From NCBI GenBank assembly GCA_964019135.1, contig OZ025265.1, positions 21,489,143 to 21,553,142 of the forward strand: a DNA stretch of 64,000 nucleotides, in the 5' to 3' direction. The translations under genes were made by a program, and so were the position numbers. Source of the stretch: Arenicola marina (lineage: Eukaryota; Annelida; Polychaeta; Arenicolidae). Shown here piece by piece: positions 18,838 to 63,120 of the stretch (the first letter of the stretch is position 1; the number at the start of each line of letters is the position of its first letter). The notes beneath the pieces are model-generated. The model did no database searches. It saw only the letters and a list, made by a program, of their open reading frames with translations, and was not told the origin of the DNA.

Positions 18838-21800
18838 ATGCGGCCTCTCCATAAAGCTCACAGTGAACTGAAGGTGCTTTCTTGGAACATTCAAGGATTA
18901 ATATCTAGGCTGCAGGACACCGACAGTGTTATTTTTAAGAATATATGCTTTAGTCACGATGTAGTTGCTATGTATGAGACCTGGGGTGCTAGCGAAGCGG
19001 TCTTAAACTCTGTCCTAGAGGGGTACGATACTTACTTCAAAGTGTGGGCTCGCAAAGCCACAAGAGGTCGAGTGCCGGGTGGCATAGCAGTTTTTGTTAA
19101 AAAGTCCTTGTCATACTGTGTGTCTGTTATCGATATTGATTGTAAATACGTTATTTGTCTCTTACTTCATAAAGAGTTTGTAGTTGCAAACGACGATATT
19201 GTATTGCTGTGCACGTATCTCCCACCCGAGGGATCGACCTCGTATGAAGAAGGTCAGGGAGATGGGGTCCTTATATTAGAGAACGTCATGGTAGAGCTCG
19301 AAGCTCGATTTCCAAACCTAGCTTGGTGTGTTCTAGGTGACTTTAACGCTCGGTCTGGCTCGTTGAATGATTTTATCAGTGAGGACAACCTTAGTTTTAT
19401 ACTAGACGCAGAAGACTGCTATCCAGCAGATGCATTTAACCCACCACGAAAGTCACAAGACACTGAAGAAAACCCATTCGGCCGGGAACTTATGCATCTT
19501 TGTAAGTCTCATGGTGTGCATATGTTGAACGGTCGCTCACTCAATGATACGGAAGGGGTATTTACCTGCCTAACACATAATGGTAAGAGCCTGGTAGATT
19601 ATGTGTTGTGTTCGACTTCACTGTTCGCAGATCTGTCCCGCCACTTCCAGGTTAAAACAGAAGACATGTCAGACCACTTCCCACTAAGTTTTACTGTCCA
19701 GTGTAAGGGTAAGTCACAAGATGAAGTGGTGAACCACCAGACCCGGGTGCGAATACGGTACAGGTGACGAGACAACTCTAAAGAGGCTTTTCTTTATAAG
19801 TTAACTAATTCTGAGGGTGATTCATTTGTTGTTAGCATCCATAATGCAATTAATACACAAGATGTAAACCAGGCTATTCTCTGCCTGAACCAATTGTATA
19901 GTTATGCATCTGAAGGAATGAAGATTAACCCTACCGGCAAACGGCGAAGTGTCTGTCACAAACCGGCATACTGGGACGCTGAGTTAGAAAATTTAAAACA
20001 TACGAAAAACAGAAAGCTAAATTCCTTCCGGAAAACTAGAGATGACACTGACCTACATGTGCATAGGGATGCCAAGACCCATTTCGTCAAAACTCGCAGG
20101 GAAAAAGAAAAGTCAATGAAAGAAATAAACAAGCAAATGTTGTGGAATAGCGTAAATGACAGTCGCTCATGCTGGCAGACAGTGAAACGTCTGAGTTGCG
20201 GTCGGTCGCAACCGTCCGAGTCTATTAGCCCCAAGAACTGGGAGACATATTTTAAGACCTTACTTAATACAGGTCCCACCCCAGACGTAGAATTCCAGAC
20301 AATGATTGACACCGAAGTAAGAGATCACGTTGGGTCATGTATAGAGTGTAATAGTGGTGTACCAACAGAGTGGTTCAATGTTGATGTAACGCTCGACGAG
20401 GTAAGGTTGGCCATTATACGGTTGCCCAGTAACAAGGCTCCAGGGCTGGATGGTCTTCCAATTGAAATATTAAAGAATAGTGTTGACTTTATTAGCCCGA
20501 TCCTAGCACGTATTTTTAATTATCTCTTGTCTCACGGTGACTATCCTCAGGAGTGGGCTGACGCGATTATCTGTCCCGTACTTAAGAAAGGCTCACATGA
20601 TAATCCTGAAAACTACAGAGGGATTTCCTTGTTGTCGACTGCCAGTAAGGTATTTATGAAGGTACTGAGTACAAGATTAACCGATTGGGCTGAGGAAAAT
20701 GAAAAAATATCTGAATGTCAAGGTGGTTTCAGGAAGGGGCGATCGACTATAGACCAAGTGTTCACTATGCAGGCTGTCATTCATAAGTATTTGTCTAAAC
20801 CTGGCGGCCGCTTTTACTGCCTGTATGTAGATTTTTCTAAAGCCTTTGACCAGGTCCCACATAATCATCTGTGGTATAAATTATTATCCGAAGGGCTTCA
20901 TGGAAGATCGCTTAAGGTTCTGATGTCACTATACCAGCAACTGCGATCATGTGTGCAGTGCTCCAATACCCTGACCGAGCTTTTTACGTGCTCCTTAGGT
21001 ACCAGGCAAGGTTGTTTATTGAGCCCATTGCTCTTCATTTTATATGTGAACGAATATTTCAACTTGTTAACTGTGAATGATTGTAAAGGTATCTTCATAG
21101 ATCAGACCTTTCCAAACTTGATAGCGCTGATGTACGTGGATGATCTGTCGAAGCTCGCCGACTCCGTGGGTAGACTGCAGGCGATAATCAAGACCTTAGA
21201 GGAATATTGCAAGAAATGGGGTATGACTATTAACATGAGCAAAACCAATATTATGGTGTTCCGAAACGGCGGGTGTCTGAGAGGGAACGAAAGATGGTTG
21301 TTCGATGGTCGACAAATACAATGTTCATCGATGTATAATTACTTAGGAATGCATTTCACCCCCAAGATGTTATGGACAGCTACACAAAAGCTTAGGGCAG
21401 ATCAAGCACATAAGGCGGCTACGGTAATAAGACGTATTGATATTCAAACAGGAGGTCTGGATTCTTGTCTATTGTTAAAGCTATTTGACTCCATGGTGCT
21501 TCCTATTCTATTGTATGGCGCAGAAATATGGGGACTTAGCTGCATAGAGGACGTTGAGAAGGTTCACGTTAAGTTTTGTAAATACATTCTGGGAGTTGGC
21601 AAATCCACGTCGAATCTAGCTGTGCTCGGTGAATTAGGCCGTCTACCGATTCAGTATAATAGCGAATTAAAAGTAATCAAATACTGGGTTAAACTGTTAC
21701 AGATGCCAGAAGATAGATTGGCTAAAGCCAGTTATAGACTGTTATGCTCGCATGATGACGTCGGTAGAATAAGAAAAAACTGGGCGTCACAAGTAAAGAA

Positions 21801-22353
21801 TTGATTATTTAAGCACGGATTTGGTGTTGCATGGCTTAGTCAAGAAGTGGGTGACGCGAGGTTTTTTATTCAGGAAGTGTCACAACGAATGAAGGATATT
21901 CACTCACAAATATGGTATACGGACGTATGTGAAAATGGCAAATTATGGAAAGAATATTGCTTTTATAAGACCTTATTAAACCCGGAACGCTATTTAAAAG
22001 TAATTAAGAGTGAACGATTAAGAAAGGCCTATAGTAGATTCAGATGTGGTAACCATGATCTTATGATAGAAAAAGGTAGACATTTAAACATGCCCTTAGA
22101 GGAGAGACTGTGTCCGTATTACCTAGGAATCTGTGTTGACGAAGTCGAGTCTCAAATACATTTCCTACTTAAATGTCATTTATACGCCGATCTTCGACAA
22201 AAGTATATTAGCCCCGTTTATTATAATTATCCATCAATAGACAGTTTTGTGCAATTGATGAGCAGCGAAAATGAGAAGACATTATACGGACTATGTAAAT
22301 TTATCGTCGCTGCCTTGAGAAAGAGAAGGCAAGAGGTGTTATCTCCACATTAG
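18838..22353 (+). pseudogene. LINE ORF2: AP endonuclease + reverse transcriptase, two in-frame stops
   Basis: One continuous frame of 1,171 residues interrupted only by TGA at 19765-19767 and TGA at 21802-21804. Both are single-base nonsense changes with the frame intact on either side. The APE-type endonuclease spans residues 1-290: LSWNIQGL, MYETW, GDFNAR, VDYVL and SDHFPLSF supply the expected catalytic N, E, D/N, D and D/H residues. Reverse transcriptase spans about 480-790: APGLDGLPIE, NYRGISLL, QGGFRKGRSTID, VDFSKAFDQV (motif A), TRQGCLLSPLLF (motif B) and YVDD (about residue 766). Then come LLYGAEIWG and NLAVLGELGR, a C-terminal segment. Last is a decayed zinc finger (CPYY...H...C near 1091). 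The layout and motifs fit the CR1/L2/jockey group; the exact clade is uncertain. It would nick target DNA and copy its own RNA. It looks recent but dead. Confidence 0.93.
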
Positions 22354-38216: not shown

Positions 38217-38360
38217 TCCCATCAACAAGGCACAACGTCGACCACTAGAATATGGATCACGCTGACTTCAACATCACCTGACGAGTGGCTCCCTCTGGTG
38301 ACGAAGGCTGACGTCCGAGAGGATGTTGGTGATGATGACGTCACCGCTTCGGCTGTGGAT

Positions 38361-39473
38361 ATGACTAGCGATGCATACACTGATACACTCGAGGAATCAG
38401 GGTCGGGTCAAAGATCATACAGCTTGTTTACCCGCTACACCAACCCAGCTGTTGCATACGTCACCCCCGTCGTCATGGTGATCGGGGTCGTTGGCAACGC
38501 CGTCAGCTTCCTAACGATGGTATCGAGCGGCGTGTGTCGGACGTCGACCACCGTCTACCTGGCTGTCCTCGCCTGGTCCGACTCTCTCTCCCTTGTGTGC
38601 TGGTCCTCCCTCTTCTGGTCACTTCCGGTCTGGGGTACCCACATCCCGGGGCTACTGCGCATGTGCAATGCACGCGAGTTCCTCCTGGCCTTCGGAACCA
38701 TCATGAGCGCTATGCTCGTGGTCTGTGTCACCGTTGATAGGTTCGTGGCCGTCTACTTCCCGTTCAAGGCCAAGCAAATTAACACCCCGAAAAGGGCCTT
38801 TTGTGTGATTTTAACGGTGGTGATGTCCGTGGCTGCTTTCGCCGCCTCCGCGTTGGTAGTTTTCACAGCAGATGAGGGCTGTCGACCGAGTCATCCGCGG
38901 CACATTGCCTACGCGACTCAATTCTTTTACGTGGTCAGCAATATCATGTACGCGTTCGGGCCTATCGCTATTCTCATCCTCTTGAACGCGCTTATAGCGG
39001 TTAAGCTATGCTTGACCTCGCGCCACGCCCATAAGGCGGCAGGCGGGTCGTCCGATAAGAAGGTTTCCAAGGCAACGGCCACTGTCCTGACAGTCTCTAT
39101 TGCTTACATCGTCCTTGAGTTGCCCTTGAATTCCCTCGTGTTAATTAATTCCATTGGTATTCTGCAGCTCCCGAACGCTGAAATATTGCTGACAACTTTC
39201 AGATTGTTTATTATAATGAACCACTCCACCAACTTCTTCTTCTACGTCCTCCTGTCGTCCTCCTTCAGACAAGATCTCGTGAGCCTGTTGAGGAAGTGTC
39301 TCGCGAGACTGTCCTGCGCGCGGGACGCTCTCGCCGACTCCCAAGTTACAAATATGTCCACGACCGCGTCGTTTGTTGACCTCCCCTCTAAGGGGACTCC
39401 CGATTTGGTTAACATGGAAGCCATCACCCCCTACAACCATACAAGCTTGGCTAAACCATGTAAAACAATCTAA
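38361..39473 (+). CDS. Class A (rhodopsin-like) G-protein-coupled receptor
   Basis: A single uninterrupted exon. The frame is open from 38217, and the first in-frame ATG is at 38361, giving 370 residues. Seven hydrophobic segments are seen. TM1 has GVVGNAV (N46), TM2 LAVLAWSDSLSL (D74), and C102 before TM3 can pair with C174 in loop 2. TM3 ends VDRFVAVYFP, a DRF variant of DRY. TM5 has AFGPIAI, and TM6 VLELPLN in place of CWxP. TM7 ends NHSTNFFFY in place of NPxxY, followed by a helix-8-like FRQDLVSLLRKC with possible palmitoylation cysteines. The NHSxNFFxY form is typical of FMRFamide/GPR139-like peptide receptors, so a neuropeptide ligand is a reasonable guess. The N-terminus is acidic. Codon use is GC-rich compared with the surrounding DNA, as expected for a live gene. 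It acts at the plasma membrane. Confidence 0.92.
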   Translation: MTSDAYTDTLEESGSGQRSYSLFTRYTNPAVAYVTPVVMVIGVVGNAVSFLTMVSSGVCRTSTTVYLAVLAWSDSLSLVCWSSLFWSLPVWGTHIPGLLRMCNAREFLLAFGTIMSAMLVVCVTVDRFVAVYFPFKAKQINTPKRAFCVILTVVMSVAAFAASALVVFTADEGCRPSHPRHIAYATQFFYVVSNIMYAFGPIAILILLNALIAVKLCLTSRHAHKAAGGSSDKKVSKATATVLTVSIAYIVLELPLNSLVLINSIGILQLPNAEILLTTFRLFIIMNHSTNFFFYVLLSSSFRQDLVSLLRKCLARLSCARDALADSQVTNMSTTASFVDLPSKGTPDLVNMEAITPYNHTSLAKPCKTI

Positions 39474-48720: not shown

Positions 48721-50082
48721 CTATATATATATACTTCTTAGTATACAATAAATCAAACTATAAAAGACTACGAAATTTCGATCTACATGATGTTGCTGTA
48801 CGAACGTTTCCCAACCGAATAAATTTCCGTTGTCATCAACAAGATCATTAATAAACATCACGCCACATCTAATTAGCTCGTGTTTTCGCCTTCGAAGATT
48901 ATCGTTTTTCATCAAGTACGAGTTCCAAAGTGGATATTCAGAAACCGTTTGCACCTCATTTAAGCTCGACCTGTATTTATATAATGCCATAAAGACTTCG
49001 GCCCAGAAAGGATTTGATGCCGTTGTAAACTTTTTCCAGTTCCCAACACATTCGACGTTCACTACATATACTAGTCTCACAAAAGAGTTCTTGCCATGAA
49101 CCTTCGTTGGATATTAGTCTTTTTATCCATATTATCTCAAGAGCTTGTATCTTCAGTTATATTAGAGGCAGGTTTACTCCGCCATTTTCGAAAGATTGGG
49201 TCATTCTATTCAGATATATTCTGGGCTTTTTGTTGTTCCACACAAACTTACGAATGACATTGTTTATTCTATCATGTTATTGTTTCCTGGGCGTTGGAAG
49301 TCCGGTTAAGACAACAATAAGTTTTGGCAAGGCGTTCACTTTAACAACAGTCACTCTCCATCGTACAGAGAGACTTTTCTTGCCATATATCGTTAAAACC
49401 TTTTCATATTCCGCTAACTTGTGGCTATAATTAATGCTAATAATATCTTTCAGATTTACACAAAATTTAAAACCCAGCAAGGTAAGCTCTTCTCCCCATG
49501 AAATTGGTAGCTCCTAACATATAACTTTTCTTTCTGGATCTCTCTTCCCCAGCCAGACAGCTTTATTTTTTTCTACATTAACCTTTAAAACCGAATACAT
49601 GCCAAACTTATCCAATAGGTGTAAAGCATTTCTAACAGACAGCTCACTGCCGTCGAGTAACAGAAACGTATCATCAGCATATGGTCTCATTTTATACTCC
49701 CTTTCTTTCCAACACCGTAATGCCCTTAATCCCCTTGTCACGTTTTAGCGCCTTCGCGAGCGGTTCAATACAGAGTATAAACAGGTAAGGTGACAACGGG
49801 TCGCCCTGTCGGCAACCTCTGCCCAAGGAGAAAAAACGGGAGAAAAAGCCATTGTTGATAACACAACTAGACGCACCATTGTACAGAATATTAACGAACC
49901 TGGAGACCATATAAATGAAGCACCTCATTTACATACTTCCAGCTTAACTATCAAAAGCCTTTTCGAAATCTATTAGAAGTAACATTCCAGACCTTTTGTT
50001 CTCTATTAAATAATGCATGATGTCATACACCATCCTGGTGTTTTCACCTGTGTATCTACCTTTCAAGAAGCCAATGGAAGAT
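48721..50082 (-). pseudogene. L1/Tx1-like LINE reverse transcriptase, 3' portion
   Basis: Minus-strand translation gives GFLKGRYTGENTRMVYDIMH, LLLIDFEKAFDS (motif A), SLGRGCRQGDPLSPYLFILC (motif B), YADDTFLLLDGS (motif C) and KVNVEKNKAVWLG. Then come ALPKLIVVLTGLPTP and a C-terminal region (FWAEVFMALYKYRS, YPLWNSYLM). The RGCRQGDPLSPYLF and ADDT forms are typical of the L1/Tx1 group, distinct from the CR1-like LINEs elsewhere in the window. There are at least two frame changes, a stop after KAFDS and a short deletion before RFVNILYNG. The gene stops abruptly at 50082, where the 21-bp satellite begins just N-terminal to the GFLKGRY block. Confidence 0.85.
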
Positions 50083-52530
50083 ATAATGACGTCGATATGA
50101 GATATGATGTCGCTGGGAGGTATGATGACGTCGATGGTAGATATGATGACGTCGATGTGAGATATGATGACGTCGATGGGGGATATGATGACGTCGATAG
50201 GAGATAAGACGACGTCGAGGGAGATATAATGACGTCGATGGGAGCTATGATGACATAGATGGAGATATGATGACGTCGATGGGACGTATGATGACATCGA
50301 TGGGAGATATGATGACGTGGGCAGAGATATGATGTCGCTGGGAGATATGATGACGTCGATGGTACATATGATGACGTCGATGTGAGATATGATGATGTCG
50401 ATGGGAGATATGATGACGTCGATGGGAGATATGATGACATCGATGGTAGATATGATGACGTCGTTGGGAGATATGATGACGTCGATGGCAGATATGATGA
50501 CGTCGATAGGAGATATGATGTCGCTGGGAGATTTGATGACGTCCATGGTAGATATGATGACGTCGATGTGGGATATGATGACGTCGATTGGAGATGAGAT
50601 GACATCGATGGTAGATATGATGACGTCGTGAGGAGATATGATGACGTCGATAGGAGATATGATGACGTCGAGGGAGATATGATGACGTCGATGGGAGATA
50701 TGATGACATCGATGGAGATATGATGACGTCGATGGGACATATTATGACGTCGATGGGAGATATGATGACGTATAAGGAGATATGATGACGTCGAAGGAGA
50801 TATGATGACGTCGAGGGAGAGATGATGACGTGGAGGGAAATATGATGTCGATGAAAGATATGATGATGTCGACAGAAGATATGATGACGTCGATGGGAGA
50901 TATGATGACGTCGATGGTAGATATGATGACGTCGATAGGAGTTATGATGACGTCGAGGGAGATATGATGACGTCGACGGGAGATATGATGACGTCGAAGG
51001 AGATATGATGACGTCGAGGGAGATTTGATGTTGGTGAAAGATATGATGATGTCGATGGAAGATAAGGTATCGATGGGAGATATGATGACGTCGATGGAAG
51101 ATATGATGACGTCGAGGGAGATATGATGACGTCGATGGGAGATATGATGATATCGATGGAGATATGATGACGTCAAGGGGACGTATGTTGACGTCGATGG
51201 GAGATATGATGACGTCGAAGGAGATATGATGACATCGATGGGAGATATGATGACGTGGAGAGAGATATGATGTCGCTAGGAGATATGATGACGTCGATGG
51301 TAGATATGATGACGTCGATGGTAGATATGATGACGTCGATGTGAGATATGATGACGTCGATGGGAGATATGATGACATCGATGGTAGATATGAAGACGTC
51401 GTTGGGAGATATGATGACGTCGATGGAGGATATGATGACGTCGATAGGAGATATGATGTCGCTGGGAGATATGATTACGTCCATGGTAGATATGATGACG
51501 TCGATGGGGGATATGATGTCGTCGATGGGAGATGTGATGACATCGATGGGAGATATGATGACGTGGAGAGAGATATGATGTCGCTGGGAGATATGATGAC
51601 GTCGATGGTAGATATGATGACGTCGATGGTAGATATGATGACGTCGATGTGAGATATGATGACGTCGATGAGAGATATGATGACATCGATGGTAGATATG
51701 AAGACGTCGTTGGGAGATATGATGACGTCGATGGGGGATATGATGACGTCGATAGGAGATATGATATCGCTGGGAGATATGATGACGTCCATGGTAGATA
51801 TGATGACGTCGATGGGGGATATGATGTTGTCGATGGGAGATGTGATGACGTCGATGGGAGATATGATGACATCGATGGTAGATATGATGACGTCGTTGGG
51901 AGATACGATGACGTCGAGGGAGATATGATGACGTCGATGGGAGATATGATGACATCGATGGAGATAGGATGACGTCGATGGGACATATTATGACGTCGAT
52001 GGGAGATATGATGACGTCGAAGGAGATATGATGACGTCGATGGGAGATATGATGACGTCGAGGGAGATATGATGTTGATGAAAGATATGATGATGTCGAT
52101 GGAAGATAAGGTATCGATGGGAGATATGATGACATCGATGGAGATATGATGACGTCGATGGGACATATTATGACGTCGAGGGGAGATATGATGACGTCGA
52201 AAGAGATATGATGACGTCGATGGGAGATATGATGACGTCGAGGGATATATGATGTTGATGAAAGATATGATGATGTCGATGGAAGATAAGGTATCGATGG
52301 GAGATATGATGACGTCGATTGGAAATATGATGCGTCGATGGGAGATATGATGACGTCGATGGTAGATATGATGACGTCGATAGGAGATATGATGACTTCG
52401 ATGGGAGATATGATGACGTCGAGGGAGATATGATGTTGATGAAAGATATGATGATGTCGATGGAAAATAAGGTATCGATGGGAGATATGATGACGTCGAT
52501 TGGAGATATGATGACGTCGATAGGAGATAG
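50083..52530. repeat. 21-bp satellite array, left block (about 117 units)
   Basis: The unit core is GATATGATGACGTCGATG followed by a variable GGA-type trinucleotide. Units vary mainly at the last positions (GGGA, GGTA, TGTGA, AGGA, AGGGA) and sometimes lose 3 bases (GATATGATGTCGCTGGGA). Variant units recur in set order, so there is higher-order structure. The 21-bp period keeps two plus and all three minus frames open, giving apparent proteins such as repeated PSTSSYL, SHRRHHI, DVIISPI, MMTSMGD and YDDVDGR. These are not credible genes. Confidence 0.97.
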
Positions 52531-52896
52531 CACAGGCGCTCAGATCTGCTGACAGAACCACCGAAGTAAATAAACAACGCCCCCCTCTCAGGCACCGCCT
52601 ATAATAGAAAGAAAGGTACCGCTCTTGGTTTGCAGCGCCACAGACAGGCCCTCGCTACAACCGGCCCTAGCGACCCACACACAACATTCACAACGCATCT
52701 ATCACCTCAAATCAACTCCATAGAACTTTAACTCTCACCACATCTACTTTCTGATGCCTGACATGTCCAAAACTTAGCACAAATCGGACATTTTCCCAAC
52801 AACTTGTAAAACAACAACACACTCGGACAGTTACCTCGACCACTTTCGCCAGAAACGTACCAGTGCGCAACTCAGAGCGAGCATTCCGGTGACGTC
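52531..52896 (+). repeat. Left terminal inverted repeat
   Basis: 366 bp, from CACAGGCGCTCAGATC to GAGCATTCCGGTGACGTC. Noncoding. Confidence 0.95.
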
Positions 52897-53610
52897 TTTA
52901 CTTCCGGCCTGTGCAGAAGGCGTGTGATTGGCTGTGACTTATTTCTGGCGGGGGCATTTGAACAGGTTAAATTTTACACAGGCAAATCCACATAAATCTG
53001 CCTTCTAGCGCTGTTGTACAATATCTTCATTCGAAAAAATTACGTATCGGTATGCGTCTTTGCAAGTTTCCTCCTTATTTCTGTTCTTAAAATAAGATAA
53101 TCGATATTATTTCAGTTCATCTGACAGCTTTCACCGTAAAGAGTATAAAGGGGGCCACTTCTTCGATCAAGTCTCGGTATTCTCTTACAGGTTACGCCGT
53201 GCGTCGTGGCACTGAAATAATTTAGTTTCACTTCATACTACACATGCAGTTGGTATTCCTGATACCAATGCTTATTTAATATGACCGCACTATTGCATAT
53301 AAATATATATACTAAAGTGAAGCAATTAAATCCATATAAATATTTCAATCATACTTCAATTCCACATGTATGGTGACATCGCATGATTAGCAGTTTCCCA
53401 GAATATCCCAAATATATTTATATCATTGAAATTTCCTAAACGAAGATTAAATCTGTCTCAAGTATTCTGTGCCTGGCAGCCCTGAACTCTTTATCGTCTT
53501 ACACCAAGTCCCATATCCCGGCATCACTATATCTGCGATAATTATGAGGGTATTAGCCACATACGCCGGGCACTTTTGGCGGGCAGTTTCAAGCTTCTGA
53601 CGGCGGGCAC

Positions 53611-53814
53611 TCAGGTGCTGTTTAGCCGCTCCAAAATAATGCCACTTGATGCCGTCACAGCCACTGTCTTTCCTCCTTGTTTTTGAAGACGACGTACAGC
53701 TTGCCGCAAATAGAATGTCTTGCCTATCCCGGCTTGGCGGGTAATACATACATTATGGCTGCCTAAAATTAGGTCCAGCGCGGTTTCCATTTGTTCCATT
53801 ATTCGATTTGCCAT
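53611..53814 (-). pseudogene. PIF1-type helicase fragment (N-terminal ATP-binding part)
   Basis: From an ATG at 53814 the minus strand encodes 67 residues: MEQMETALDLILGSHNVCIT, RQAGIGKT, FYLRQAVRRLQKQGGKTVAV and TASSGI. This matches the start of PIF1/RRM3 5'-3' DNA helicases, with the usual order EQ..AL.L, NVFITGQAGTGKT (Walker A), LR.....L...G, VAVTASTGIA (motif Ia). The first Walker A glycine is replaced by arginine, and the frame ends soon after motif Ia, where the DE-box motif II should come. So only the first two helicase motifs survive. It is either a captured host gene piece or the remnant of an element-encoded helicase. The upstream in-frame codons to 53859 lack an ATG. Confidence 0.7.
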
Positions 53815-54233
53815 GCATGACTTGTTGATGTTTACATCTTTTATTAAATACAAAGACACGTGATCAGAGGAGTTTCAATAAAATATATAGGTCGTGGGTC
53901 ACCGGAAGACACTGAATGAGGGGGTTACTAGTATTATCATGTTCGAGAGGGAAAGTCCACTGACTATTTATTTACATTATGGCTTCTTCGTGTAAGTTTG
54001 TATAGTGTGCACGTGTCCACAACGGCCCTATACCAAGCAGCAAAAACAACCTTTGACATCAGGCAACTGTTTGTGTCTACAAATTAAAAAAAAAATGGGC
54101 GAAAACACTTAAACTGTTTGTGCCAAAAATCCAATTCGAGATCTCTACAAATATTTAACTTTTATGAACCACACCCCTGTTTGCGAAGATGGGGGTGTAG
54201 CGCCCCTAACCCAATGTGTGACACGATTTCAGT

Positions 54234-54599
54234 GACGTCACCGGAATGCTCACTCTGAGTTGCGCACTGGCACGTTTCTGGCGAAAGTGGTCGAGGGATC
54301 TGTCCGAGTGTGTTGTTGTTTTGCAAGTTGTTGGGAAAATGTCCGATTTGTGCTAAGTTGTGGACATGTCAGGCATTAGAAAGTAGATGTGGTAAGAGTT
54401 AAACTTCTATGGAGTTGATTTGAGGCGATAGATGCGTTGTGAATGTCGTGTGTGGGTCGCTAGGGCCGGTTGAAGCGAGGGCCTGTCTGTGGCGCTGCAA
54501 ACCAAGAGCGGTACCTTTTTTTCTATTATAGGCGGTGCCTGAGAGGGGGGCGTTGTTTATTTACTTCGGGGGTTCTGTCAGCAGATCTGAGCGCCTGTG
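54234..54599 (-). repeat. Right terminal inverted repeat
   Basis: Reverse complement of 52531-52896, about 96% identical by eye. Confidence 0.95.
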
Positions 54600-54607
54600 G
54601 GAGATAG

Positions 54608-57600
54608 GATGAGGTCGATGGGAGATATGATGACGTCGATGGGAGATATGATGACGTCCATGGAAGATATGATGACGTCAATGGGACACATGATGACGTC
54701 GATGGGAGATATGATGACGTCGATGGGGGTAATGATGACGTCGAGGGAGATATGATGACGTCGATGGGGGTAATGATGACGTCGAGGGAGATATGATGAC
54801 GTCGATGGGAGATATGATGACGTGGAGGGAAATATAATGTCGATGAAAGATATGATGATGTCGATGGAAGATATGATGACGTCGATGGGAGATAAGATGA
54901 CGTCGATGGGAGATATGATGACGTCGAGGGAGATACGATGACGTCGATGGGAGATATGATGACGTGGATGGAGATATAATGACGTCGATGGGGGCAATGA
55001 TGATATCGATGGAGATATGATGACGCCGATGGGCCGTATGATGAGGCCGATGGGAGATATGATGACGTCGAAGGAGATATGATGACATCGATGGGAGATA
55101 TGATGACGTGGATAGAGATATGATGTCGCTGGGAGATATGATGACGTCGATGGTAGATATGATGACGTCGATGTGAGATATGATGACGTCGATGGGGGAT
55201 ATGATGACGTCGATGGGAGATATGATGACATCGATGGTAGATATGATGACGTCGTTGGGAGATATGATGACGTCGATGGGGGATATGATGACGTCGATGG
55301 GAGATATGATGACGTCGATGGGACATATGATCACGTCGATGGGAGATATGATGACGTCGATGGGAGATATGATGACGTCGAGGGAGATATGATGACGTCC
55401 ATGGGAGATATGATGACGTGGATGGAGATATAATGACGTCGATGGGACCTATAATGATATCGATGGAGATATGATGACGTCGATGGGACGTATGATGACG
55501 TCGATGGGAGATATGATGACGTCGAAGGAGATATGATGACATCGATGGGAGACATGATGACGTCGATGGTAGATATGATGACGTCGATGGTAGATATGAT
55601 GACGTCGATGTGAGATATGATGACGTCGATGGGGGATATGATGACGTCGATGGGAGATATGATGACATCGATGGCAGATATGATGACGTCGTTGGGAGAT
55701 ATGATGACGTCGATGGGGGATATGATGAAGTCGATAGGAGATATGATGTCGCTGAGAGATATGATGTCGCTGGGAGATATGATGATGTCCACGGTAGATA
55801 TGATGACGTCGATGGGGGATATGATGACGTCGATAGGAGATATGATGTCGCTGGGAGATGCGATGACGTCCATGGTAGATATGATGACGTCGATGTGGGA
55901 TATGATGACGTCGATGGGAGATCAGATGACATCGATGGTAGATACGATGACGTCGTGAGGAGATATGATGACGTCGATAGGAGATATGATGACGTCGAGG
56001 GAGATATGATGACGTCGATGGGAGATATGATGACATCGATGGAGATATGATGACGTCGATGGGACATATTATGACGTCGATGGGAGATATGATGACGTAT
56101 AAGGAGATATGATGACGTCGAAGGAGATATGATGACGTCGAAGGAGAGATGATGACGTGGAGGGAAATATGATGTCGATGAAATATATGATGACGTCGAT
56201 GGTAGATATGATGACGTCGACGGGAGATATGATGACGTCGAAGGAGATATGATGACGTCGAGGGAGATATGATGTTGATGAAAGATATGATGATGTCGAT
56301 GGAAGATAAGGTATCGATGGGAGATATGATGACGTCGATTGGAGATATGATGCGTCGATCGGAGATAGGATGCCGTCGATGGGAGATATGATGACGTCGA
56401 TGGGAGATATGATGACGTCGATGGAAGATATGATGACGTCGAGGGAGATATGATGACGTCGATGGGAGATATGATGACGTGGAGGGAAATATGATGTCGA
56501 TGAAATTTATGATGACGTGGAGGGAGATATAATGACGTCGATGGGAGCTATGATGATATCGATGGAGATATGATGACGCCGATGGGTCGTATGATGACGT
56601 GGAGAGAGATATGATGTCGCTGGGAGATATGATGACGTCGATGGTAGATATGATGACGTCGATGTGAGATATCATGACGTCGATGGGGATATGATGACGT
56701 CGATGGGAGATCTAATGACATCGATGGTAGATATGAAGACGTCGTTGGGAGATATGATGACGTCGATGGGGGATATGATGACGTCGATAGGAGATATGAT
56801 GTCGCTGGGAGATATGATGACGTCCATGGTAGATATGATGACGTCGATGGGGGATATGATGTCGTCGATGGGAGATATGATGACGTCGATGGGAGATATG
56901 ATGACATCGATGGTAGATATGATGACGTCGTTGGGAGATATGATGACGTCGAAGGAGATATGATGACGTCGAGGGGAGATATGATGACGTCGATAGGAGA
57001 TATGATGACGTCGAGGGAGATATGATGACGTCGATGGGACATATGATGACGTCGATAGAAGATATGATGACTTTGATGGGAGATATGATGACGTCGAGGG
57101 AAATATGATGTCGATGAAAGATATGATGATGTCGATGGAAGATATGATGACGTCGATGGGAGATAAGATGACGTCGATGGGAGATATGATGACGTCGATG
57201 GGAGATATGATGACGTCGAGGGAGATATGATGACGTCCATGGGAGATATGATGACGTGGATGGAGATATAATGACGTCGATGGGAGCTATGATGATATCG
57301 ATGGAGATATGATGACGTCGATGGGACGTATGATGACGTCGATGGGAGATATGATGACGTCGAAGGAGATATGATGACATCGATGGGAGATATGATGACG
57401 TGGAGAGAGATATGATGTCGCTGGGAGATATGATGACGTCGATGTGAGATATGATGACGTCGATGGGGGATATGATGACGTCGATGGGAGATAGGATGAC
57501 ATCGATGGTAGATATGATGACGTCGTTGAGAGATACGATGACGTCGATATGGGATATGATGACGTCGATGGGAGGTATGATGACGTCGATGGGAGATATG

Positions 57601-60600
57601 ATGACGTCGATGGGAGATATGATGACGTCGAGGGAGATATGATGACGTCGATGGGAGATATGATGACGGGGATGGAGATATAATGACGTCGATGGGACCT
57701 ATAATGATATCGATGGAGATATGATGACGTCGATGGGAGATATCATGACGTGGAGAGAGATATGATGTCGCTGGGAGATATGATGACGTCGATGGTAGAT
57801 ATGATGACGTCGATGTGAGATATGATGATACCGATGGTAGATATGATGACGTCGTTGGGAGATATGATCACGTCGATGGGGGATATGATGACGTCGATAG
57901 GAGATATGATGTCGCTGGGAGATATGATGTCGCTGGGAGATATGATGACGTCCATGGTAGATATGATGACGTCGATGGGGGACATGATGACGTCGATGGG
58001 AGATGTGATGACGTCGATGGGAGATATGATGACATCGATGGTAGATATGATGACGTCGTTGGGAGATATGATGACGTCGAGGGAGATATGATGACGTCGA
58101 TGGGAGATATGATGACATCGATGGAGATATGATGACGTCGATGGGATATATTATGACGTCGATGGGAGATATGATGACGTTGAAGGAGATATGATGACGT
58201 CGGTGAGATATATGATGACATCCAGGGAAATATGATGTTGATGAAAGATATGATGATGTCGATGGAAGATAAGGTATCGATGGGAGATATGATGACGTCG
58301 ATTGGAGATATGATGCGTCGATGGGTGATATGATGACGTCGATGGGACATATGATGACGTCGATGGGATATATGATGACGTCGATGGGAGATATGATGAC
58401 GTCGAGGAAGATATGATGACGTCGATGGGAGACATGATGACGTGGAGGGAAATATGATGTCGATGAAAGATATGATGATGTCGATGGAAGATATGATGAC
58501 GTCGATGGGAGATATGATGACGTCGATGGAACATATGATGACGTCGATGGGACACATGATGACGTCGATGGGAGATATGATGACGTCGATGGGAGATATG
58601 ATGACATCGATGGTAGATATGATGACGTCGTTGGGAGATATGATGACGTCGAAGGAGATATGATGACGTCGAGGGGAGATATGATGACGTCGATAGGAGA
58701 TATGATGACGTCGAGGGAGATATGATGACGTCGATGGGACATATGATGACGTCGATAGGAGATATGATGACTTTGATGGGAGATATGATGACGTCGAGGG
58801 AAATATGATGTCGATGAAAGATATGATGATGTCGATGGAAGATATGATGACGTCGATGGGAGATAAGATGACGTCGATGGGAGATATGATGACGTCGATG
58901 GGAGATATGATGACGTCGAGGGAGATATGATGACGTCCATGGGAGATATGATGACGTGGATGGAGATATAATGACGTCGATGGGAGCTATGATGATATCG
59001 ATGGAGATATGATAACGTCGATGGGACGTATGATGACGTCGATGGGAGATATGATGACGTCGAAGGAGATATGATGACATCGATGGGAGATATGATGACG
59101 TGGAGAGAGATATGATGTCGCTGGGAGATATGATGACGTCGATGTGAGATATGATGACGTCGATGGGGGATATGATGACGTCGATGGGAGATAGGATGAC
59201 ATCGATGGTAGATATGATGACGTCGTTGAGAGATACGATGACGTCGATATGGGATATGATGACGTCGATGGGAGGTATGATGACGTCGATGGGAGATATG
59301 ATGACGTCGATGGGAGATATGATGACGTCGAGGGAGATATGATGACGTCGATGGGAGATATGATGACGGGGATGGAGATATAATGACGTCGATGGGACCT
59401 ATAATGATATCGATGGAGATATGATGACGTCGATGGGAGATATCATGACGTGGAGAGAGATATGATGTCGCTGGGAGATATGATGACGTCGATGGTAGAT
59501 ATGATGACGTCGATGTGAGATATGATGAAGTCGATGGGGGATGTGAGGACGTCGATGAGAGATATGATGATATCGATGGTAGATATGATGACGTCGTTGG
59601 GAGATATGATCACGTCGATGGGGGATATGATGACGTCGATAGGAGATATGATGTCGCTGGGAGATATGATGTCGCTGGGAGATATGATGACGTCCATGGT
59701 AGATATGATGACGTCGATGGGGGACATGATGACGTCGATGGGAGATGTGATGACGTCGATGGGAGATATGATGACATCGATGGTAGATATGATGACGTCG
59801 TTGGGAGATATGATGACGTCGAGGGAGATATGATGACGTCGATGGGAGATATGATGACATCGATGGAGATATGATGACGTCGATGGGATATATTATGACG
59901 TCGATGGGAGATATGATGACGTTGAAGGAGATATGATGACGTCGGTGAGATATATGATGACATCGAGGGAAATATGATGTTGATGAAAGATATGATGATG
60001 TCGATGGAAGATAAGGTATCGATGGGAGATATGATGACGTCGATTGGAGATATGATGCGTCGATGGGTGATATGATGACGTCGATGGGACATATGATGAC
60101 GTCGATGGGATATATGATGACGTCGATGGGAGATATGATGACGTCGAGGGAGATATGATGACGTCGATGGGAGACATGATGACGTGGAGGGAAATATGAT
60201 GTCGATGAAAGATATGATGATGTCGATGGAAGATATGATGACGTCGATGGGAGATATGATGACGTCGATGGAACATATGATGACGTCGATGGGACACATG
60301 ATGACGTCGATGGGAGATATGATGACGTCGATGGGAGATATGATGACGTCGAGGGAGATATGATGACGTCGATGGGAGATATGATGACGTGGAGGGAAAT
60401 ATGATGTCGATGAAAGATATGATGATGTCGATGAAAGATAAGGTATCGATGGGAGATATGCTGCCGTCCATTGGAGATATGATGCGTCGATGGGAGATAG
60501 GATGACGTCGATGGGAGATATGATGACGTCGATGGGAGATATGATGACGTTGATGGGAGATATGATGACGTCGATGGGACACATGATGACGTCGATGGGA

Positions 60601-63120
60601 GATATGATGACGTCGATGGGGAATATGATGACGTCGAGGGAGATATGATGACGTCGATGGGAGATATGATGACGTGGAGGGAAATATGATGTCGATGAAA
60701 GATATGATGATGTCGATGGAAGACATGATGACGTCGATGGGAGATAAGATGACGTCGATGGGAGATATGATGACGTCGATGGGACATATGATGACGTCGA
60801 TGGGAGATATGATGACGTCGATGGGAGATATGATGACGTCGATGGAGATATAATGACGTCGATGGGAGCTATGATGATATCGATGGAGATATGATGACGT
60901 CGATGGGACGTATGATGACGTTGATGAGAGATATGATGACGTGGAGAGAGATATGATGTCGCTGGGAGATATGATGACGTCGATGGTAGATATGATGACG
61001 TCGATGTGAGATATGATGACGTCGATGGAGGATATGATGACGTCGATGGGAGATATGATGACATCGATGGTAGATATGATGACGTCGTTGGGAGATATGA
61101 TGACGTCGATGGGGGATATGATGACGTCGATAGGAGATATGATGTCGCTGGGAGATATGATGACGTCCATGGTAGATATGATGACGTCGATGGGGGATAT
61201 GATGACGTTGAGGGAGATGTGATGACGTCGATGGGAGATATGATGACTTGGAGGGAAATATGATGGCGATGAAAGATATGATGATGTCGATGGGACATAT
61301 GATGACGTCGATGGAAGATAGGATGACGTCGATGGAAGATATGATGACGTAGATGGGACATATGATGACGTCGATGGGAGATATGATGACGTCGATGGAA
61401 GATATGATGACGTCGATGGGACACATGATGACGTCGATGGGAGATATGATGACGTCGATGGGAGATATGATGACGTTGATGGGAGATATGATGACGTCGA
61501 TGGGAGATATGATGACTTGGAGGGAAATATGATGGCGATGAAAGATATGATGATGTCGATGGGACATATGATGACGTCGATGGAAGATAGGATGACGTCG
61601 ATGGAAGATATGATGACGTAGATGGGACATATGATGACGTCGATGGGAGATATCATGACGTCGATAGGAGATATAATGACGTCGAGGGAGATATGATGAC
61701 GTCGATGGGAGATATGATGACGTGGAGGGAAATATGATGTTGATGAAAAATATGATGATGTCGATGGGACATATGATGACGTCGATGGAAGATAGGATGA
61801 CGTCGATGGAAGATATGATGACGTAGATGGGACATATGATGACGTCGATGGGAGATATGATGACGTCGATGGGAGATATGATGACATCGATGGAGATATG
61901 ATGACGTCGATGGGATATATTATGACGTCGATGGGAGATATGATGACGTCGAAGGAGATATGATGACGTCGATGGGAGATATGATGACATCGAGGGAGAT
62001 ATGATGTTGATGAAAGATATGATGATGTCGATGGAAGATAAGCTATCGATGGGAGATATGATGACGTCGATGGGAGATATGATGACGTCGATGGGAGATA
62101 TGATGACGTTGAGGGAGATATGATGACGTCGATGGGAGACATGATGACGTGGAGGGAAATATGATGTCGATGAAAGATATGATGATGTCGATGGAAGATA
62201 TGATGACGTCGATGGGTCACATGATGACGTCGATGGGAGATATGATGACGTCGATGGAAGATATGATGACGTTGAGGGAGATATGATGACGTCGATGGGA
62301 GATATGATGACTTAAAGGGAAATATGATGGCGATGAAAGATATGATGATGTCGATGGGACATATGATGACGTCGATGGAAGATAGGATGACGTCGATGGA
62401 AGATATGATGACGTAGATGGGACATATGATGACGTCGATGGGAGATATGATGACGTCGATGGAAGATATGATGACGTCGATGGGACACATGATGACGTCG
62501 ATGGGAGATATGATGACGTCGATGGGAGATATGATGACGTTGATGGGAGATATGATGACGTCGATGGGAGATATGATGACTTGGAGGGAAATATGATGGC
62601 GATGAAAGATATGATGATGTCGATGGGACATATGATGACGTCGATGGAAGATAGGATGACGTCGATGGAAGATATGATGACGTAGATGGGACATATGATG
62701 ACGTCGATGGGAGATATCATGACGTCGATGGGAGATGTGATGACGTCGAGGGAGATATGATGACGTCGATGGGAGACATGATGACGTGGAGGGAAATATG
62801 ATGTTGATGAAAAATATGATGATGTCGATGGGACATATGATGACGTCGATGGAAGATAGGATGACGTCGATGGAAGATATGATGACGTCGATGGGACATA
62901 TGATGACGTCGATAGGAGATATGATGACGTCGATAGGAGATATAATGACGTCGAGGGAGATATGATGACGTCGATGGGAGATATGATGACGTGGAGGGAA
63001 ATATGATGTCGATGAAAAATATGATGATGTCGATGGAAGATAAGGTGTCGATGGGAGATATGATGACGTCGATGGGAGATATGATGACGTCGATGTAGAA
63101 AAATATGATGACATCGATTA
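54608..63120. repeat. 21-bp satellite array, right block (about 405 units)
   Basis: Same unit and orientation as 50083-52530. It includes a ~1.7-kb higher-order duplication (56870-58580 and 58570-60330) and, from about 61260 on, a shorter higher-order block marked by GACGTAGATGGGACATATG that recurs several times. Open frames of up to 1,073 codons are produced by the 21-bp period; opposite-strand and overlapping frames are equally open, which argues against coding. Confidence 0.97.
56870..60330. repeat. Higher-order tandem duplication within the satellite (~1.70/1.74 kb)
   Basis: Rare variants recur at a fixed offset of 1,700 bases: CTTTGATGGG at 57071 and 58771, GGAGGTATGA at 57571 and 59271, GACGGGGATGG at about 57666 and 59366. 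After about 57830 the offset becomes 1,742, because the first copy lacks two 21-bp units. The duplication is therefore recent. Confidence 0.92.

Follow-up and report, generated by a model that had tools for sequence, protein, structure and literature searches.

Our analysis indicates that the element at positions 52531-54599 of the window (the whole 64,000-nucleotide stretch of Arenicola marina DNA that was analysed) is highly likely to be an internally deleted, non-autonomous DNA transposon of the P superfamily, derived from a large parent type that carries three genes, among them one for a PIF1 helicase. The element belongs to a dispersed family, A, and the parent type is represented by three families of longer relatives, B, C and D. 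On our best reading, a P-superfamily lineage combining PIF1, a transposase and a second gene has gone unreported; in the literature covered, which took in few subscription papers and had Repbase outside it, we found no description of a P element that carries PIF1.

Between its flanking duplications the element measures 2,069 bp. Its two terminal inverted repeats of 366 nt each (52531-52896 on the plus strand, starting CACAGGCGCTCAGATC, and, by arm comparison, 54234-54599 on the minus strand, the helicase-side end) are 96% complementary with 14 differences and are spaced 1,337 nt apart. The 8-mer GGAGATAG was read directly at both 52523-52530 and 54600-54607, an exact duplication. The target DNA on either side is a satellite in which TRF finds period 21, with the same unit and one orientation throughout (120.5 copies at 50074-52529 on the left and 415.1 copies at 54598-63095 on the right), and the rejoined empty site, ...GTCGATAGGAGATAGGATGAGGTCGATGGGAG..., gives an in-phase 21-bp unit with a few changes. 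The arms of about 96% identity, the 8-bp duplication, the satellite in one orientation and a centre with N-terminal PIF1 motifs had all been described in an earlier note on this DNA, whose range of 52523-54607 takes in both duplications, and our measurements bear that description out. The interior at 52897-53420, of no known origin, would correspond to that end of the deleted parent which held the transposase; it falls within the interior matched genome-wide and gave no convincing protein match against B, C or D sequence. Elsewhere in the window, a GPCR gene lies at 38217-39473.

The helicase remnant at 53611-53814 on the minus strand was placed by translation and by comparison with the family B PIF1. 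It is an exon 1 remnant running from MANRIMEQ to a stop and containing GSHNVCITRQAGIGKT and TVAVTASSGI, which we take to be the PIF1 helicase motifs I and Ia. It matches Pfam PF05970 at E 6e-4 (19.8 bits, below the cut-off of 25.9) and the family B PIF1 at 51% identity (E 1e-10). A decayed motif-II exon (RILETDLIFV*EISMI; 53421-53480, minus strand) emerged when the family A consensus was compared with B PIF1 at L069:3563-3622 (50% identity over 20 aa, E 1e-4), and the two exons stand in order within A. Since full-size A copies elsewhere carry the same remnant, it is a family trait rather than a capture at the window site. Among the other PIF1 matches, none bar A-type remnants exceeded about 50% identity to A's fragment. 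Of the two origins that the earlier note had allowed, capture or retention, it is most likely that the piece was retained from a gene still present in the larger relatives.

The interior of A was found at at least 40 places, the window included, and window positions 52523-52888, covering the left arm, gave at least 41 matches genome-wide, their own included; 40 of 94 candidates were scored for the interior and 40 of 331 for the arm, so that these counts are lower bounds. The 25-bp end motif of A, allowing at most 3 mismatches, occurs 642 times in the genome and never in a reversed control, and thus the ends do not arise by chance (the places covered are 100 of the 642, and 100 of 167 in a second search; these counts too are lower bounds). 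Exact 8-bp duplications, with 8-mers that differ between copies, flank 26 of the 31 complete A copies taken from loci L001-L066 and are missing in the other five. Arms, duplications and helicase fragment are therefore not confined to the window, and the earlier view of the element as a non-autonomous DNA transposon other than a Helitron agrees with the arms, the duplications and the dispersed copies. That it is young needs qualifying: at 2.9% from the consensus of the 31 copies it is among the older half, and a recent group of A copies has nearest-neighbour distances of 0.15-0.7%. Here age was judged against the consensus, and arm-to-arm divergence was not taken alone as a clock.

The insertion sites carry a further signature. 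We collected 31 distinct A sites chosen for exact duplication (in 28 of them the element is 1.8-2.3 kb long, in one 2.7 kb and in two 147-148 bp), and they read ATG-N8-CAT. For the Drosophila P element, the palindrome targeted is ATRGTCCGGACWAT (PMC10299278). Against this 14-bp target the sites match on average at 6.94 of 14 positions in the true register and at 3.74-5.19 at 24 other offsets; shuffled sites reach 4.44 +/- 0.29, with 0 of 2000 shuffles attaining 6.94, and scoring W as Y gives a mean of 6.71. The A insertion sites thus match the P target as a preference, not as an identity.

Families B, C and D have 8-bp duplications and arms of 280-380 bp; elements of D and C measure 9.5-10.2 kb. 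The ends of all four families fit CA[CT][AG][AG]GCGC: A and C have the terminal 9 bases CACAGGCGC in common, B ends CATGAGCGC and D ends CACGAGCGC. At least 5 copies of C, 10.2 kb long, are bounded by both termini, 4 of these 5 having exact duplications, which also flank both B copies (2/2) and the one D copy (1/1). The arms are 99.3% identical in C, in a copy that has no exact duplication, and 100% identical in D. In the full-length relatives PIF1 lies just inside one arm and reads inward. At least 11 loci hold all three genes, namely PIF1, a second conserved protein of about 430 codons and a convergent P-type transposase; in C and D, PIF1 and the second protein were identified from the matches of the genome search. 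After 79 of 108 PIF1 matches had been assigned to family A remnants by identity and excluded from the co-location count, 12 of the remaining 29 had a transposase at a distance of at most 15 kb, and at 11 of these all three genes were present. The second protein was within 15 kb of 25 of the 47 transposase matches, some of which are pieces of one place, and was convergent in all 25. Under uniform placement about 0.05 co-locations would be expected per pair type. The second protein, which may come from a gene of its own or from a 3' exon of the PIF1 gene, is without a known family (best Pfam E 0.02, zinc-ribbon/RING-like; NCBIfam E 0.07; nothing in PDB).

The transposases of B and C match PF21787 above its cut-off and have D, D, DxxH and E motifs in common. 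For the 569-aa C frame, the Drosophila P transposase (6p5a) was the sole PDB match at E up to 10, with E 4.9e-4; the alignment spans SRLNSDVVENFF and SRLNQDIVEHFF, respectively, and the motif SRLN.D.VE.FF is common to both proteins. Two pieces of the B transposase searched singly in PDB gave nothing credible, and the GTP-binding model PF21788 had no match in the B and C transposase searches. An intron-blind scan for the C2CH (THAP) pattern in a 15.7-kb B copy found none on the transposase strand and one match in the second-protein frame, where Pfam had no THAP match; none of the THAP candidates scored in the genome, 150 of 682, lay near the 12 PIF1-transposase loci. The superfamily, which the earlier note had left undetermined, is very probably P for family A also, judging by its larger relatives. 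No transposase encoded by A itself was found, and longer relatives with a transposase between similar arms exist in B, C and D, with none bearing A's own arms. Most of the 92 inner arm ends of A pair at about 2 kb, and no full-length parent was found among the places examined from them; six unpaired or odd arms (C182, C244, C9, C1, C2, C14) ran into partial copies or repeats of other kinds, and no P transposase was seen there. A candidate 7.4-kb parent at C5:14184490-14191931 proved to be a copy of A interrupted by 5.4 kb of inserted DNA with 202-bp tandem repeats. With a full-length A missing, the family is tied to P by its ends, duplication, target motif and helicase rather than by its own transposase.

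How else might such an element arise? Large inverted arms within a repeat array could reflect a local inverted duplication inside the satellite, with no transposon involved, but the recurrence of the interior at 40 or more places and the differing exact 8-mers around 26 of 31 copies leave that reading practically no credence. A Helitron or Helitron derivative is exceedingly improbable. The usual Helitron helicase is a PIF1-type domain, and A does carry a PIF1 fragment; yet its 366-bp inverted arms and exact duplications are unlike Helitrons, its relatives hold a P-type transposase, and the B helicase scores up to 121 bits against PIF1 chains (7otj, E 5e-34) and 28.7 bits against Helraiser. By sequence, the helicase resembles the PIF1 of cells and not that of Helitrons, and with the arms and duplications this led us to reject a Helitron.

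That A belongs to a different superfamily which also makes 8-bp duplications (hAT, Zisupton/KDZ, Merlin or MuDR) is improbable, even though neither such duplications nor long arms are peculiar to P. These two features made Zisupton/KDZ the candidate considered first, and the transposase search, which among these four superfamilies covered KDZ, does yield 34 KDZ matches in the genome. It was set aside: none lies near the PIF1-transposase loci, the nearest on a shared contig being 3.5 Mb from the 12. Moreover, the ATG/CAT flanks and the palindromic duplication fit the P target, and the ends of A match those of family C, whose transposase is of P type. Nor do we think it likely that A acquired its piece of helicase from the host in a chance, Pack-type capture, its superfamily then being unrelated to the helicase. 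In favour of such a capture, the fragment is short, often frameshifted and, with 26/17/21 variable sites at the first, second and third codon positions, free of third-position bias, and 17 of the 29 non-A PIF1 matches have no transposase match within 15 kb. However, B arms accompany three of those 17 (C3:58163140, C3:44711104, C348:132728) and a C terminus lies 1.7 kb from a fourth (C12:24137726); the large relatives hold PIF1 at the same position, inside one arm and inward; and A retains remnants of both PIF1 exons, in order, and has its terminal 9 bases in common with C. A one-off capture was rejected, as both the A remnants elsewhere and the three-gene relatives carry PIF1.

We therefore return to descent from a three-gene parent. 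Such a parent would have the genes for PIF1 and the second protein on the same strand, pointing inward from one of its ends, and a gene for a P-type transposase pointing inward from the opposite end. This transposase would bring the two ends together, cut the element out and insert it at the palindromic ATG-N8-CAT, where the target is cut with an 8-bp stagger; gap filling would then leave the 8-bp duplication, a course of events established for the Drosophila P element. Family A would have arisen by internal deletion, possibly while a gap left by excision was being repaired, of everything from the transposase-side end up to PIF1 exon 2, and, keeping both ends, would be moved in trans, presumably by a transposase of its relatives. 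Cellular PIF1 helps break-induced replication, and our guess is that, once an element of such unusual length has been excised, its PIF1 helps repair synthesis to copy it. Both PIF1 and the second protein have been kept despite the divergence between B and C (34% identity in the second protein, about 45-53% in the transposase), which suggests that they aid transposition or the subsequent repair. We give somewhat better than even chances to the wider proposal of an undescribed P lineage of large three-gene elements, several families of it recently active to judge by the near-identical or identical arms of the C and D copies, in which both proteins are working parts of transposition and the helicase drives gap-repair or replicative copying of the 10-kb element after excision. 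Such help would make an old question testable, namely copy-number gain by gap repair of a cut-and-paste element, and likewise what makes internally deleted copies so frequent. The lineage also offers an origin for the many short elements in this genome whose inverted repeats have these ends.

Few transposons have been studied as thoroughly as P elements, which are regarded as carrying a single gene. The families described here have PIF1 and a second conserved protein, unlike known P elements, with no THAP domain seen so far; they have arms of 280-380 bp, compared with 31 or 13 bp, and a length of about 10 kb, compared with 2.9 kb for the P element. In other respects there is likeness: the P superfamily (Drosophila P, zebrafish Pdre2/THAP9) has 8-bp duplications and a palindromic target (PMC10299278), ends starting CA as in A, B, C and D (Pdre2 ends CATACCTGTCAAC; PMC10983969), and internally deleted copies (PMC7776569), as A is here. 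Helitrons and Helentrons have a PIF1-type helicase, as here, but one clearly more distant in sequence; they are rolling-circle elements without inverted arms or duplications. Other superfamilies do offer precedents for a DDE transposon coding for both a transposase and a helicase. AcademH is one, although duplications in the Academ lineage are 9-10 bp (PMC10045372) compared with 8 bp here. KolobokH and Kolobok-1_CCri are others, with a Kolobok transposase and a RecQ helicase, which one of them has on the complementary strand (PMC9587614), where the present families pair PIF1 with a P-type transposase.

Family A, which comprises the 2,069-bp non-autonomous element at 52531-54599 and its copies across the genome, is a pointer to a lineage of the P superfamily that carries three genes, one of them a helicase, and this lineage is more interesting than the helicase fragment that led to it. 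What the earlier note reported at 52523-54607 is real and was correctly seen. A direct comparison of the left arm (52531-52896, 366 nt) with the right arm (54234-54599, 366 nt) gives 96% complementarity, identical 8-mers, GGAGATAG, border both arms (52523-52530 and 54600-54607), and a 21-bp satellite with an identical unit in one orientation lies on either side, its unit still in phase when the element and one 8-mer are deleted in silico. The window copy is 2.9% diverged from the family A consensus, and its arms differ from each other at 14 positions, versus 2 in the consensus.

The earlier note had proposed looking for the arm and for 8-bp duplications elsewhere, and both are found genome-wide. 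Across 867 Mb in 762 contigs, and with the best 40 candidates scored for each query, the arm gives at least 41 match rows and the interior at least 42, at 40 or more places including the window, and identity is 92-97% in nearly all of these rows. The 25-bp terminus has 642 matches at up to 3 mismatches (reversed control, 0), versus 92 for the inner end of the arm, so that most termini come from shorter or truncated relatives; two such short relatives, read end to end, measure 147 and 148 bp. Loci L001-L066 yielded 31 complete copies of 1,880-2,110 bp, each with sufficient flank and no more than 4 mismatches at either end, and the 8-bp duplication is exact in 26; among the other five, L038 has a one-base difference, and L026 and L055 touch or contain other family A ends. 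Nearest-neighbour distances of 0.15-0.7% mark a recent group. Copies nested in or abutting other A ends, at L011, L048 and L055 (about C5:27381400-27385300) and L026 (C6:12904465-12906615), suggest that these ends may be favoured insertion targets; in one case the 8-mer that is duplicated exactly, CTCGGACA, is itself arm sequence. A further copy (L067, C5:14184400-14191000) is interrupted by a 5.4-kb insertion (L067:436-5808) whose inverted ends measure about 70 bp and which holds a tandem array of fifteen 202-bp units that are 97% alike; the accompanying duplication is short and, given an ambiguous boundary, reads either TCA or CTCAG.

Within the window copy, an 87-aa frame ending at 53611 on the minus strand weakly matches PIF1-like families. 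Of 108 genome rows for this helicase fragment, 79 were assigned to family A and 29 are non-A PIF1 rows. As to whether other copies hold the fragment, it is present at dozens of family A places and hence belongs to the full-size family. Many copies have stops or frameshifts in it, and its variable sites fall 26/17/21 by codon position with no third-position bias; by these measures we saw no sign of upkeep as a protein. The consensus keeps the motif-II exon (50% to family B over 20 residues), so the remnant covers the first part of a helicase gene including an intron.

The next-best helicase rows, 40-50% identical to the family A fragment, pointed to larger elements, and the search for longer relatives with a transposase that the earlier note had proposed leads to families B and C, whose ends resemble those of A and whose transposase is P-type. 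Family B has a 3.97-kb copy (C3:58162546-58166514; arms 310 bp, ends CATGAGCGCTTAAA, duplication GTTCTGAT) and a 15.7-kb copy (L070, C3:2893486-2909218; duplication GTGTGGTG). In the long copy PIF1 is in pieces, with the motifs GQAGVGKT, DEISM, GDFYQL and TIHKCQG and with Pfam matches to PF05970 (twice) and Pif1_2B, all above cut-off; a second conserved protein of about 430 codons lies at L070:576-1925, and the transposase (PF21787, E 3e-8) is on the strand opposite these two. Inserted into the same copy is a non-LTR retrotransposon that encodes an endonuclease and a reverse transcriptase (L070:3800-7075). Family C has at least 5 copies of 10.2 kb with CACAGGCGCCGTAAATCAGCAGG at both ends; duplications are exact in 4 of 5, the exception being the one copy whose arms (about 280 bp, 99.3% identical) were compared. 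A family D copy (C1:11509809-11519357, 9.5 kb) has 381-bp arms that are 100% identical and the duplication GTTGGAGT.

The family C transposase is a 569-aa frame in all five copies, with PF21787 above cut-off (6.8e-10) and PF21789 weak and below it. At E up to 10 this frame has a single PDB match, the Drosophila P transposase (6p5a, E 4.9e-4), and the aligned stretch includes the motif with the catalytic glutamate. Two family B transposase pieces, each searched alone in PDB, gave no credible match; the B and C transposases have GGI(I/V)xDEM, FDGASANR, D(C/A)KH and ENFF in common. Neither a THAP nor a GTP-binding domain was established by Pfam in B and C, nor THAP by a C2CH pattern in B or by the best 150 of 682 genome THAP candidates, none of which lies near the 12 PIF1-transposase loci; the sole C2CH-type match in B falls in the second-protein frame, where Pfam gives no THAP. 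Five P-type transposase fragments (C6:8240106, C20:12117386, C4:1727096, C7:8243402 and C6:25125206), of equal span with a 144-aa frame and one stop apiece, and without the second protein within 15 kb, are perhaps another deleted subfamily; a THAP match from those best 150 of 682 lies 7.8 kb from the last.

Using the family B proteins and the family A helicase fragment as queries, with a 15-kb limit, we found the second protein near 25 of 47 transposase rows, on the opposite strand in every case, and a transposase near 26 of 30 second-protein rows. A transposase accompanies 12 of the 29 non-A PIF1 rows, and at 11 of these 12 the second protein is present too; uniform placement would give about 0.05 per pair type. 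Three of the 17 PIF1 rows lacking a transposase neighbour have B arms and one a nearby C terminus. Since identity of the second protein drops to 28-37% among genome rows, the three-gene arrangement is probably old. The helicase gene itself could derive from cellular PIF1 or from a Helitron, and bit scores, which are a comparison of scores and not a tree, make the cellular source more likely: the best PDB matches of the joined family B exon pieces are chains named ATP-dependent DNA helicase PIF1 (7otj, 121 bits; 5o6b, 114; 6hph, 97), whereas Helraiser, the sole Helitron protein among the matches, reaches just 28.7.

The earlier note had called the window element a non-autonomous DNA transposon of undetermined superfamily; the first part stands, and the superfamily is very probably P. 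Four lines tie family A to it: the tip bases, the 8-bp duplications, the target palindrome and the placement of PIF1. Families A and C have the tip bases CACAGGCGC in common, and the ends of A, B, C and D all fit CA[CT][AG][AG]GCGC. A set of 31 distinct family A insertion sites, chosen for an exact duplication, forms the palindrome ATG-N8-CAT, and these sites match the Drosophila P target motif, as given in PMC10299278, only at the true register (mean match 6.94 of 14 vs 3.74-5.19 at other offsets; 6.71 with W read as Y), a match that 0 of 2000 shuffles reached. PIF1 has the same position and direction in A as in the larger relatives. The helicase rows, the 92 inner arm ends and the odd places examined yielded no family A parent that encodes a transposase.

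Excision and integration in the manner of Drosophila P would be the natural inference. Family A would be mobilised in trans, and the agreement of A and C in their outermost bases suggests that a C-type transposase may do this. Internally deleted copies are described as typical of P elements in PMC7776569. For PIF1 we prefer, as a conjecture, a role in aiding extended DNA synthesis during repair of the donor site. DDE transposons that encode a helicase have been described in Academ (AcademH; PMC10045372) and in Kolobok (RecQ; PMC9587614). No description of a P element with PIF1 was found in the literature searched, outside which lie Repbase and most subscription papers, and a prior description may exist.

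KDZ-type transposases also occur in the genome (34 match rows, the longest open frame being 595 aa), none of them near the PIF1-transposase loci. Elsewhere in the window, 18838-22353 holds a non-LTR retrotransposon with three long open frames in succession, the middle one a reverse transcriptase by Pfam, and 38217-39473 holds a Rhodopsin-type GPCR in a single 418-codon open frame.
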